From NCBI GenBank assembly GCA_025765615.1, contig JAIVFJ010000103.1, positions 161,963-225,962 on the forward strand: a stretch of 64,000 nucleotides of DNA, given 5' to 3'. Below are positions 50,333 through 55,957 of the stretch, one piece after another (position 1 is the first letter of the stretch; every line of letters starts with the position of its first letter). A program made the translations under genes and the position numbers. The notes beneath the pieces were generated by a model. That model was not told the origin of the DNA and ran no database searches. It saw only the letters and a list, made by a program, of their open reading frames with translations. This DNA is from Zopfochytrium polystomum (Eukaryota; Chytridiomycota; Chytridiomycetes; Chytridiales; Chytridiaceae).

Positions 50333-53150
50333 ATGGCGAGCCAAGTGAATTCCTGGACTTTGGTTTTTGAGCTGGGCATTACTGGAAGGAAGATCGAAGT
50401 TCCTACCAGCACCGGCTTTGACAATCTGCACCAGCTTGTGGCTTCCCGCTGGAATATCACTGGTCCCATTGAATTGGTGTACGTGGACTCTGCAACTGGT
50501 TGTAAAATGATCCTTGATGTGAAAGACAACCTGGCAAGCCTTCTTTCTCAGAACTTCAAGTGGAAGGTAAGATTGCTTATCATCAGTTGTTCTTTTTCAT
50601 TCTTCTGAAATTTTTTAAGGTGCTTGCTGAGCCAGTTTCGAACCCTTCTGGAGCAACCCAAACTGTTCCAACTGCATCATCTGGAGTAAGCACAACCACT
50701 GCTGCTGCTGCTAATGGTGATAGCTTTGATGTGAGCCTGGTGCCTGACAAGGATGTCATGAAGTTTAGGAATGATCATCAGAGTGTTGTTTCTAATTCTC
50801 CATCAGATAAGTGGATGGGGTTGATTCCAAGAGATTGGAAGTGTGAGGACCAGTGTTCAAAAGCATCCTTTCATTATCAGGTCTGTGCTGCATGTTTGTT
50901 CCAATAATCATATCTGACCCTCCAACAGCCACCGACAGGCATCAGAAACGGTGTTTGCGAAGGACCTTTTCCATGAAATGGAGAAAGCTTTGGGAAGAAC
51001 AGTGCCACTGAATGATTTCAACCAAGAGACCAAAATGAATGGTCTCCAGGCTTTTTGGGATGCAAAGTGCCTTGCTTTTGGCCAGAAGTGGGACGTCAAC
51101 TTCATGTCGGTCTTGTATCACTCTTCAGTTATTATTCTGCTGTGTTCTGATTTGAGCATGAAGCGGATGCTGGAGGCTGACAAAAAGCTGGACAATTGCT
51201 TGTTGGAGGTGAGCTTGTTGATCTGATTTTCTGGTTGCTAAATGTAATCATTAGTGGGAACTTGCACTTCAGATGAAGGAAGAGAGAGGAGTCGACATCC
51301 TGCCTGTTCTTCTTTCGGGGCAGGTGGCTGCAACTCTTGAAGCTGGGAGGAAGGAGTTGTTGGAGAAAAACTTTAGCACATTTGATCACTCCAAGTTTCC
51401 TGACTCACTTCATGCTCATCCTTTGAGCCCTGCCGCCACACTGTATCTCAAATTGTCAAGATGGTGCTGGAGCTGAATGGGCCCTTTGCCCATCCTGACA
51501 GCGATGTCCTCAAGTAATGCAATTGCATTTTTTTGTTTTTGTTGTGTTTCTTGAACCTTTCTCACACAACTTTGGATATGCAACAGAGTTGTCACCGTTG
51601 CAAGGAACGTGTACAGTGAAGGAGAACAGTCTGAGAAGAAGACTCCCAATGCAATTTCGGATATTTCACTCTCCAGACCAAGATTGAATGAATTGGAAAC
51701 GTGGCTGACTCCCCTGTCTGACATCATGGACAATGAAAGGCAGACCCTTCTGAAGAATGTGCTTTCTGGGTCCAGACAGTGGCTCCTCAACAGAGTGTTT
51801 CAGTTTCTGTCTCCTGATGATCTGTCAGCAGCAAGCAGCAACAGGGTGATGTGGTTGAAGGGTGTGGCTGGCGTGGGCAAGTCTGTGATGGCTGCCATGG
51901 CTCCAGAGAGCTGGAGGCTTTCGGCATGCTTGGTGGCATGTTCTTTTGCAAGCATGACAATGAACGTCGCAACAGTGCTCGCAACCTGGTTCTGACCCTG
52001 GTATTCAGTCTTGCAAAGTTCAGCTTTCAGTATGGAGAAATTCTTCTTCAAGTCAAGCAAGACAATCCAGATATTTTGTCCAGACCGGTGTTTGAGATGA
52101 TGAAGGTGCTGCTTGTTCAACCGCTGCAGAGCGTTGTTGATGCCAAGCAGCTGGAAGTGCCAGTTGTGCTAGTTGTGGATGCCCTGGACAAGTGTGGTGC
52201 TGTTGGCAAAAGGAGTGATATTCTGTCATTGTTCAAGAGCTGAACAAGCTCCTTCCTTCAAATGTGAAATTGCTGGTAACTGGATGCCCTGAAGTAGACA
52301 TGTCAAAGGCCTTTGAGATGATTCCGGTCACTGAAATTGAGCCAACTGCTGAAGACAACATCAAGGATCAGATTGAGTACACGTGGAATTTTCTGATAAC
52401 ATTGAACGCTGAGCAATCTGTGGTGGATGATGGATCCAAGCTCCTTGTGTCAAAGTCATCTGGGATTTTTGTCTGGCTTGTTACTGCTTGCACCTACCTG
52501 AGGGATTCCAATGCTGAGGTCATTACCCTTGATGAAGTCAATGCACATGCCAGAGGGAGACAAGATGAATGGCCGCAGTGATAAGATGTATGACAGAATC
52601 TTTGCTGGCATTTTGGACTCGGCCAAGTTGAGCCAGTTGGAGTCCTTGCTTCACACTGTGCTGTCCATCATTGTCCTCGCATATGAACCACTGACTGCAG
52701 CAGCCATGGCGTCTGCCATTTGACAAGTTTCACACTGAGATCCCTGATTTCAATGAAAAGTTGCAAATGGGCTCCCTGAGCATGTCAGATCTGCAGTGAA
52801 GCATTTTTGGGAGCACTGCTTTCATGACTCAGGGGAACTCTCCCCAAAGACATTTTCAGTGGAGTATCAGACAACCTCAAAAAGCCTCTTGGCGGAGGGT
52901 GCAAACTTTTCTTGAAAATCACAGACATCACTTCCTTGAGGCCTGCAGCTTATTGGACTCACTCAGTCTGGTGATTCCTGCCATGACGAAGCTTCAGACT
53001 TTGTTGAATGATTCTGGAAAGAAAACCTTGGAAACGTTGATGACAGACATTAAAAGAGTTTTTGCAAAAGTTTCTCATTCCACTCAAGGCATCAGCGTTA
53101 CAGGTTTATTTCACTGCCATTCCTTTCTCTACAAGTGGTTCTGAATTTCA
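50333..53150 (+). pseudogene. TIR-NACHT (STAND) receptor-like gene, disrupted
   Basis: Early exons splice well: 50333-50566, 50620-50880, 50939-51208, then 51273 onward, and 51587 after an intron at 51514. Residues 1-78 form a ubiquitin/PB1-like domain (FDNLHQLVASRW, IELVYVDSATG). A TIR-like domain follows: ASETVFAKDLFHEMEKAL, AFWDAKCLAFGQKWDV, SSVIILLCSD, DNCLLEMKEE (possible catalytic Glu) and VDILPVLLSG. The NACHT region has Walker A GVAGVGKSVM (51861-51890), LGGMFFCKHDNERRN and Walker B-like VPVVLVVDALDKCG. Frameshifts at about 51430, 51900, 52235, 52555 and 52725, and a stop near 52797, break it; matching fragments continue in shifted frames to about 53.1 kb. TIR-NACHT proteins are innate-immune/incompatibility sensors. 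No WD40 or TPR sensor domain is seen. Codon use is less GC-rich than in the housekeeping genes. Confidence 0.7.
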
Positions 53151-55156
53151 CAAGAAACTTGTAGAGAAGTTGCCACGCAGCTTGTCATTCCCAAGTGCTG
53201 GACACTCGCTGGAGCAGCGTGGAATAAAGCATCTCCTATCATCTCAGTTTCCTGTAATGGCCCTGCGCTGCATTTTTTTGAGCAGACCCCACCAAAGTCA
53301 AAGAATGCCAACATGAACTGACATATTTGAGGAGGTTCAAAGGACTGTTGGTAGGTTGCACCCAATGAGTGGAGACCCACCTGCAATACCTGCAATGGCC
53401 AACAACGCTCGGCTCACAGTTTGCCTTTTGAAAAGAGAGCCGAATTTGTACAAACTTGCAAACTAGGGAATGAAGCATGTGCAGCTGCTGGGATTCACAA
53501 GCAGTAGCACAACATGTGCAGCAAGACCATAGTGCAGTTGCCAGAGTAAACCAGAAGCAGATGGCTGCATGTCCATGGGCAGATGGCCAAGTCAGCCTAA
53601 GTCACCAGATTACAGCTCCGGTCTCCCCAGAGGCGTGGGTTTGCATCCCATGCACATTTAGCCCAGCAGCTGCATTGCCACCAACAATAAGTAGTACTGG
53701 CCTCTCCCACTTGAGGGATCTCTGACTGTTGGATTTTGCTTTAAACCCCCCTCTGCCAGACACTTAGCTAGATTTGATTCAAGCATATCATCCACTGATG
53801 CACCCTTCCCATGGTTCCCAGTCTATGCCATCATCTGAAAACCAGGATCATTAGAGAACTGCTGCCAAGGCGAGAAGCGAACCAAAGAACCTTGCTGATA
53901 AGTTGGCAAATTTGGAAAGGTGTTGGTCTCTGACCCTTTCTGCACAGGCTGGGTTCTATGTGAAACAAGAACAGAAACACCTTCCGTCATAGCAGAGGGG
54001 CAGAGGGAGCATTAGCCCCAGGTTCCATTCCCCATCACCAGGCAGTGCATCCCAAGAGAGAATCTTCTACCACTTGTACTGATGCGTGATGCCTTGGGTT
54101 GCAGTGAGTGTTGAGCAGGTAGAAGCGGCCAGTTGGCGCAGCAGCCCAGCGCCCTGATGGACTCCAAGACAGCTTTCTTTGGTTTGAGTTTACAGTCAAC
54201 CATGGACATAAAGGGGGGTTTATATCAGTGGTAGATAGTTTGCATGTGAGATGCCGTGGGTTTGAGCCCCACTACCTCATTGCTGGAGTAGGGTGTCATT
54301 ATGTCTCCCAGCAACGCCACCTGAAAGAATTCGTTGGGGTGGATTGTCTATGGGTTGTGCTGCTGTGGAGATGGAGGTAGTGCACTACTGAAGGTGGTGG
54401 TGAATGGGAGGTTGAGTTTGGCTCCAGTCGGTCTTGTGTTTGCCTTTATACAAAACTGTTACAAGGACCATCACTTACAAAATGCTGCAAGTCATCCTTG
54501 CACAAGGTGCCCCTGTGCACCACAGTGTCAGGTCAAAGCTCCTGCTCACTGCTTACCTCAAAAGACCCAAAACTAACACCACCTGAACCTCTCCCGACTC
54601 TGTGCCTCCAGGTACTGTGACTCAGAGATGTCTCCAGGCGTGTGCCACTGCCTCCCAAATTCAAAGGGGACAGCTGGGCAACTCTCAGCAGTTTAAGCAA
54701 GTTGGAAACAGCGCACCCACACATGAAAAAACAAGCACATTGACTGTCCGCCTCGATCCCCAACAGCAGCAGCACACCTTAGCAAGACCAGGTTGGGAAT
54801 CAGTGACATCGCAGTCATTGATCCACAACATTGACAACACTCACACAACACATCACCTCGCTACATAATCGCCAGCAACCACAACACTTGATGTAAACAG
54901 TCTACTTTGAGTGAGTGAGTGGAAGGAGTGAATGAAGTGGAGATGTGTGTTTGTGGGTGGTCCTTCTCCCCAACTTGGAGAGAAAGAGAAAAAAACTCTG
55001 TTATGACTTATTGATAAATAATGATGATATGCACTCTATAATAGTTGCTAGGCAAGCGTGACTGGCACAGGGTAAAAAACCCCTCCTATATGCTCTGCTT
55101 CAGCAGAGGAGGAGGAAAAACTGTTGACACCAGGTTTCTGTTCCACTTAATACTCA
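53151..55156. other. Intergenic with tRNA debris
   Basis: 53583-53656 (+) resembles the 3' two thirds of tRNA-Leu/Ser (CACCAGATTACAGCTCCGG, variable arm, GGTTTGCATCCC). 54214-54279 (+) is a tRNA-Ala pseudogene related to 14968-15040 with its anticodon loop deleted. No protein gene is supported. Confidence 0.5.
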
Positions 55157-55310
55157 GAGTATTTGTCAACAGTGCAAGCCAGCGCCCAGGTCTGCATTGG
55201 CGGTGGCTTGCTCTCCCATGGCCATTTTGAGAACAATAACTGACAGTCACAATAGGTTCAGGTCTGTCTTGTGCCTCTTGCTGCTAACCAGTCAGTTCTG
55301 CCCAACACTT
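55157..55310 (+). repeat. Dispersed repeat R3, copy 3
   Basis: Matches 12686-12825 in the same orientation; the best shared core is ccaggtctgcattggcggtg. It extends slightly further (ccagtcagttctgcccaaca), as does copy 2. Confidence 0.7.
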
Positions 55311-55957
55311 GAGTCATCCACCCTCTGCAGCTCAAAAGACTTTTGCACAAGGTTACACACTCCAGAAGCGTACTTCAAAAGTCCTGACCGTGCGTGTTCA
55401 TTGGAAGCATGCTGGAGTCAAGTGGCATTCATTCTACTCTAAGAGCGATTATGGCCACCAGCTGGGCTAATAAAGGGGTGGTGTGAAGGGTGATGTAATG
55501 GGCAATGTAACAAAACTCTATAGAAAAGTTTACACCACATCGCTTGCTCCCCCACCCTCCCCACTAGTCAGTGCATCTATTCCTTGTCCTTTCTGCCTTC
55601 TTTTTTGGACACCCCCAAGTCGAATCAAAACATGTGTCAGCAGGAGCAGATGGAAAATGAGCCTTGTCAAGGATACACTGCATTTTGGCCCACAGGACAT
55701 GCCGTGCCAAATTTTGGATGAATTTGGCCTGACTTAACCACCTGGTGGCACACAATCCAGTGGGAAATTTTTGTCTTAGCCCAGATGGTGGCCACTGGCC
55801 ATGCTCCAAGAAAGAATTCCTTTCCCTGGAACCTTCTGCTATGGCTACGTTCATGATTGAATTGGGATGATTGCTGCGTAAAACGCAGTTGTATGCCTTG
55901 TAGGTCCACTTGGACTATAGCTTCTGTCTAAATTGACCATGGAGATCTCACACAACC
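55311..55957. other. Intergenic, nothing recognisable
   Basis: Short frames only, no similarity noticed. Confidence 0.5.

Follow-up and report, generated by a model that had tools for sequence, protein, structure and literature searches.

What kind of gene left the broken TIR and NACHT blocks found in the genome of a chytrid, Zopfochytrium polystomum, and what family does it belong to? The window analysed here is a stretch of 64,000 nucleotides from this fungus, and at 50333-53196 it carries a pseudogene that belongs to a large family of NOD-like receptors (NLRs). Large repertoires of TIR-NLRs are known above all from plants and some animals, and the best-studied fungal NLRs rely on HET and further effector domains. 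The window locus is ordinary as a single gene and is interesting as a pointer to a remarkable family. The reading that we hold to be probable is that of a dead gene of a birth-and-death PB1-TIR-NACHT-WD40 family, signalling likely via a TIR NADase, in which we infer both the function and the role of the PB1 domain. The features of the locus are as follows.

50333..50566, + strand: exon 1, the N-terminal PB1-type domain of 78 aa, open, with a start codon and a GT donor.
50620..50752, + strand: exon 2, a low-complexity Ala/Thr/Ser linker, placed by eye against C161 and C92, two intact relatives.
50806..50880, + strand: exon 3, the start of the TIR domain (first strand), placed by tblastn with the C92 exon; its frame is broken in the window copy.
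50929..51208, + strand: exon 4, the core of the TIR domain up to and including the catalytic-type glutamate (..LLE), placed from genomic matches with 50939-51208.
51255..51513, + strand: exon 5, the end of the TIR domain (WELAL...DILPVLL), placed by tblastn, with a frameshift at about 51.43 kb.
51587..52710, + strand: exon 6, the NACHT domain (NPHP3_N), with its P-loop at 51861-51884 and three one-base frameshifts at about 51.90, 52.23 and 52.55 kb.
52711..53196, + strand: a remnant, 242 bp being gone before it; homology with C161 ends at about 53196 and the WD40 part is missing.
54917..55311, + strand: a stretch 81.6% similar (blastn) to the DNA 3' of the C161 stop codon.

An earlier note on this DNA had described a broken TIR-NACHT gene with an N-terminal PB1-like block and a TIR-like segment ahead of the NACHT P-loop. 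The blocks lie where it placed them, with the TIR exons at about 50806-51513, and the lost WD40 C-terminus and the size of the family are additions to that description. No open reading frame spans all the domains of the window copy, which carries nine frame-changing events and has no WD40 region. After exon 2, where a donor is expected from C161 and C92, it has AT instead of GT. Furthermore, two conserved NACHT motifs read DALDKC and TGCPEVD where two intact relatives have DALDEC and TGRPEED, and an altered Walker B motif accompanies the broken frame. The resemblance of 54917..55311 to DNA beyond the C161 stop codon points to loss or replacement of the WD40 part in between. The DNA at 53197-54916 occupies the place of the C161 WD40 domain, and the alignments of two other copies, C416 and C137, continue through it. 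In an exon-by-exon Pfam scan of the window copy, the sole match over its cut-off is NPHP3_N (4.1e-10, piece 51899-52240), and the TIR and PB1 exons match nothing when scanned singly. The TIR and PB1 assignments could therefore not be settled from the window copy alone.

The intact relatives that the earlier note had proposed to look for exist in the same genome and supply what the window copy lacks. C161 and C92 splice into proteins of 1631 and 1634 residues, respectively, with a terminal stop only, and both present the order PB1, linker, TIR, NACHT (NPHP3_N) and 12 clear WD40 repeats. Within residues 1-1062 of C161, Pfam places WD40, NPHP3_N (86.3 bits, cut-off 24.8) and TIR_2 over their cut-offs, and the NACHT profile itself (PF05729) reaches 25.5 bits, slightly below its cut-off of 26.7. 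TIR_2 (PF13676) scores 29.3 bits in C161 and 31 bits in C92 against a curated cut-off of 28. The dN/dS ratios between C161 and C92, a single gene pair compared by the Nei-Gojobori method, are 0.20 for PB1, 0.32 for TIR and 0.26 for the NACHT region, and 0.66 for the linker, 0.78 for the WD40 region and 0.67 for the C-terminus. In this one pair, selection appears to keep PB1, TIR and NACHT and to leave the sensor freer.

The family is large. The TIR exon has at least 121 genomic matches, whose identity to the window exon runs from 100% down to 32%; the NACHT piece has at least 150 (180 candidates, 150 of them scored) and exon 1 at least 115, all of these being lower bounds that may also include haplotype contigs and genes split in two, which would inflate them. 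When exons on one strand are paired by distance (TIR at most 1.8 kb and exon 1 at most 2.8 kb upstream of NACHT), 85 of the 150 scored NACHT matches have both TIR and exon 1 upstream, 17 have TIR only, 10 have exon 1 only and 38 have neither. Of the 85, 54 also have an open frame of 1000 residues or more. Weighing against the family reading are 48 of the 150 NACHT matches that lack a TIR exon at the stated distance of 1.8 kb and 19 of the 121 TIR matches that lack a NACHT downstream. Uncollapsed haplotypes may have inflated these numbers, leaving a true family of modest size, a possibility that we take seriously and still doubt. It draws on near-identical groups with equal scores (C128/C291 and C66/C171/C191/C285) and on the near identity of C750, C416 and the window copy; against it, the spread of identity over the 121 TIR matches marks many members as clearly distinct. 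The 85 NACHT matches with both N-terminal exons fit the birth-and-death receptor family that the earlier note had suspected, and copies of the window gene that bear the same lesions, with their flanks, on other contigs are as expected of such a family.

The WD40 region, absent from the window copy, resembles in the intact relatives that of known fungal receptors. The 12 clear repeats have a mean pairwise identity of 0.75 in C161 and 0.741 in C92; a pooled count that adds one degenerate C-terminal segment of C92 gives 25 segments and an identity of 0.664. Both counts, drawn from these two proteins, find the same most variable positions among the 42 of the repeat: 7, 25, 9, 6, 27 and 5. The HNWD receptors of Podospora anserina (HET-D, HET-E and HET-R) likewise combine NACHT with WD40 repeats of 42 residues that are near-identical, and share with the Z. 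polystomum family both high repeat identity and fixed hypervariable positions, as judged from the two proteins in an assumed register. In its available portion, Paoletti et al. 2007 (PMC1805685) gives the selected HNWD positions as 7, 9, 25 and 27, and that of a 2025 paper (PMC12222747) gives positions 10, 11, 12, 14, 30, 32 and 39, which we read as the former numbering shifted by five. All six of the top variable positions (5, 6, 7, 9, 25 and 27) fall within this published set, in a register that was assumed and fixed before the comparison and that agrees with the set in its spacing. For six top-ranked positions out of 42 to lie within a given set of seven has a probability of 1.3e-6 in a fixed register, which a floating register would raise at most 42-fold. 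The seventh HNWD position is not variable in C161 and C92. The N-termini differ: the Z. polystomum family has PB1 and TIR_2 where the HNWD proteins have HET, and a Pfam search of the N-terminal 355 aa of C92 returned no HET domain, with TIR_2 and a weak PB1 as its sole matches at E≤10.

This likeness bears on what the family recognizes. The correspondence of its variable WD40 positions with those of the HET-D/HET-E incompatibility receptors would suit a role in allorecognition, that is, in incompatibility between fused cells or thalli and not in defence against viruses or parasites. We consider such a role unlikely: the vast majority of fungal NLR genes are not in allorecognition according to the accessible text of a review (PMC12881547), and the portion available of a mycovirus survey (PMC7482067) has Z. 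polystomum WB228 among the isolates from which purified dsRNA had been made ready for sequencing, so that a viral target is possible.

In the mechanism that we favour, a WD40 propeller whose repeats are alike save at a few positions would bind a varied protein target. By analogy with the STAND family, target binding would lead to nucleotide exchange in NACHT and to oligomerisation, which would bring the TIR domains together. Cleavage of NAD+ or a nucleotide signal would follow and cause the shutdown or death of the cell, a step proposed because the kept TIR glutamate aligns with that of SARM1. The PB1 domain, with its acidic OPCA-like motif, may dock a partner PB1 protein or aid assembly, the weakest step of the scheme. 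The window copy would have dropped out of this pathway with the loss of its sensor, its frame and its NACHT residues.

The enzymatic step depends on the identity of the TIR domain and of its glutamate. The TIR reading of the earlier note holds through the relatives: the intact genes pass the TIR_2 cut-off, and all 12 aligned sequences (11 loci of Z. polystomum and P0003 of Cladochytrium, with L056 left out) match TIR_2 at E≤1, the best at 6e-15, while the single exons of the window do not. At 26 of the 28 distinct places compared, the window included, the glutamate at the exon 4/5 junction (LLE/WEL) is present. These places derive from 34 loci considered, of which 31 had a readable TIR; L024, L026 and L051 had stop codons or lacked exons and were left out. 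One exception, L056, has Q, and the alignment of the other, L016, ends before the residue. SARM1 shares this glutamate with the family in a weak profile match (E 0.39), and we take it, from that alignment and from what is known of TIR NADases, to be the probable catalytic residue. SARM1 has an extra association domain, SAM, to which PB1 would be the counterpart in the Z. polystomum family, and, unlike that family, SARM1 is not known to have NACHT or WD40. A PDB search with one TIR sequence returned no matches.

A TIR domain without enzymatic activity, acting as a scaffold for self-association with signalling through PB1 partners, would be compatible with the weakness of the SARM1 alignment, with purifying selection on PB1 in the one pair tested and with the Q found at one of the 28 places. 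Against it stands the glutamate kept within LLE|WEL at 26 of them, and we regard this alternative as improbable. NADase activity of the family TIR is the prediction that we retain.

The PB1 domain is conserved, and its role is the least certain step of the mechanism. As PB1 domains elsewhere do, it may dock to a partner PB1 protein or assemble front to back. The earlier note had seen an N-terminal ubiquitin/PB1-like domain, and support for it comes through the relatives, the window exon itself scoring nothing. PF00564 matches 11 of 15 family members at E≤1, the best at 6.1e-9, these 15 being taken from 20 distinct exon-1 sequences; the N-terminus of C92 alone is a weak match (E 0.11). In a scan of the genome with the PB1 profile, 35 places exceed the cut-off and 19 of them overlap exon 1 of the family, as checked against 24 of the at least 115 exon-1 places, picked by eye. 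The 16 matches outside exon 1 include possible PB1 partners, and one of these 16, at C110, precedes a TIR of the family. The exon-1 alignment conserves a Y-x-D...G motif with acidic residues, which we take to be OPCA-like. A single-sequence fold of the window exon gives the order strand-strand-helix-strand-strand-helix at low confidence (mean pLDDT 52). Compared with the PDB, exon 1 itself reaches a best E of 0.17 and the PB1 profile a best E of 0.012, to an NBR1 homolog. A Crinkler (PF20147) origin of exon 1 was also considered and found no Pfam support. C110:9000-13500 (L067) is a variant of the family in which two PB1-like domains precede TIR and NACHT; one scores 6e-7 and the other, under the cut-off, 5.6e-4.

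Related architectures have been described in part. In Cladochytrium replicatum, the protein BJ742DRAFT_871831 (P0003) resembles the family in its TIR, NPHP3_N and WD40 domains and its LLEWELAL motif, with 33% identity across 85% of the C92 region used as query (E 4e-116). It differs in that its public model has no PB1 visible by eye, and the first 80 residues of that model look mis-modelled. A search with the P0003 TIR returned P0003 itself and no other protein. In wild peanut, Arachis stenosperma, AsTIR19 and AsTIR57 also carry an N-terminal PB1 before TIR and a STAND NTPase; in AsTIR19, the available part of the source (PMC9786959) places PB1_UP2 at 9-111, TIR at 135-294 and NB-ARC at 339-525. 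As described there, these are two plant proteins with NB-ARC rather than NACHT and without WD40 or LRR, and their PB1 is treated as an integrated domain. Fungal NLRs with Crinkler (of the ubiquitin clan) or SEFIR/TIR-like N-termini share domain clans with the family, and TIR is stated as reported in NLRs of Chytridiomycota, in the sections available of PMC9815663, whose main text contains no occurrence of PB1. Earlier surveys, in their accessible portions, found no NLRs in chytrids (PMC4986451) and no TIR (PF01582) in 49 fungal genomes (PMC2939053).

The claim of the earlier note that a TIR-NACHT layout is rare in fungi and a PB1 N-terminus unusual is thus to be narrowed. Chytridiomycota TIR NLRs are already in print (PMC9815663) and PB1-TIR fusions are known from a plant (PMC9786959), so that, on the available text of these two sources, neither chytrid TIR-NLRs nor PB1-TIR as such is new. 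In the open-licence literature, as far as its texts were available, we found no PB1-TIR-NACHT(-WD40) protein in a fungus, no such copy number and no such HNWD-like variable positions, and the combination of PB1, TIR, NACHT and variable WD40 looks new for fungi. With PB1 directly before the TIR enzyme in a large chytrid repertoire, one speculative possibility is that PB1 partners act as common helpers through which many diversified WD40 sensors feed into a single TIR/NAD network, an arrangement that would have been reached independently of the PB1-TIR-NB-ARC proteins of wild peanut. With such a family it could be tested whether the HET system and TIR/NAD immunity go back to a common origin among early fungi, and why a plant and a fungus have each joined PB1 to a TIR receptor.

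When did the window gene die, and how much of its damage is real? Counted against intact C161 and C92, nine frame-changing events lie in the window copy up to 53.2 kb, in keeping with the "at least five" frameshifts of the earlier note. Five of the nine are common to C137: the one-base frameshifts at about 51.90, 52.23 and 52.55 kb, which C416 and C750 also have; the 242-bp deletion at about 52.71 kb, again found in C750 and C416; and an event at about 53.06 kb that is absent from C750. Two more, at about 51.43 and 52.76 kb, are in C416 and C750 but not in C137, the change near 51.43 kb being longer in C750 than in the window and C416. The remaining two, a length change in exon 3 at about 50.85 kb and an event at about 52.90 kb, are private to the window copy and are probably assembly errors.

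The alignments of the copies indicate why caution is needed. C750 differs from the window by 1 substitution and 20 indels (13 of one base) over 4320 columns, and C416 by 1 substitution and 33 indels (32 of one base) over 7021 columns; both may be alternative haplotypes of the window locus. One substitution against 20 or 33 indels means that much of the indel load in near-identical copies is assembly error and that assembly noise accounts for some of the broken frame. It rules out the view that all lesions are biological, and single-base indels in C103, C416 and C750 need read support before genes are called dead. C137, in contrast, differs by 63 substitutions and 22 indels over 4627 columns, a divergence of about 1.4%; its alignment begins at about 50.70 kb of the window, and it has no exon 1. 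A gene that is whole in the organism, with errors of uncorrected long reads behind every frameshift, is very improbable despite the excess of indels in C750 and C416 and the two events private to the window, as five of the nine events recur in C137, 63 substitutions away, which rules out that all frameshifts are errors, and the 242-bp deletion and the WD40 loss are not base-calling errors. By this comparison of copies, the window gene appears dead, and its death to have preceded the split from C137. The "recent decay" of the earlier note is therefore half right: five of the nine lesions are older than a duplication with about 1.4% divergence, and some of the indels are probably assembly errors.

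Other TIR genes were noticed in the same genome and beyond. A search with the PB1-TIR block of C14 found one chytrid protein with TIR, P0005 of Entophlyctis sp. JEL0112 (38% identity over 44% of the query), which has no PB1 match; its model fuses the TIR to a methyltransferase followed by LRR-like sequence (LRR_1 only 0.016). In Z. polystomum, NACHT lies within 1.8 kb downstream of 28 of 85 TIR_2 matches, and one of the 28 (C99) belongs to the family of the window gene. A second TIR class, at C241:75500-82500 (L064), pairs TIR_2 (1.3e-19) with a protein kinase behind it (2.5e-11) in two tandem units; the LRR-like sequence downstream of them is weak (LRR_6 0.00099, under its cut-off), and C415 (L065) resembles this TIR-kinase arrangement by eye. 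Finally, a third class, to which 26 other places may also belong, is arranged at C436:4500-8000 (L066) as TIR, NACHT and ankyrin repeats, the ankyrins having been checked at C436 only.
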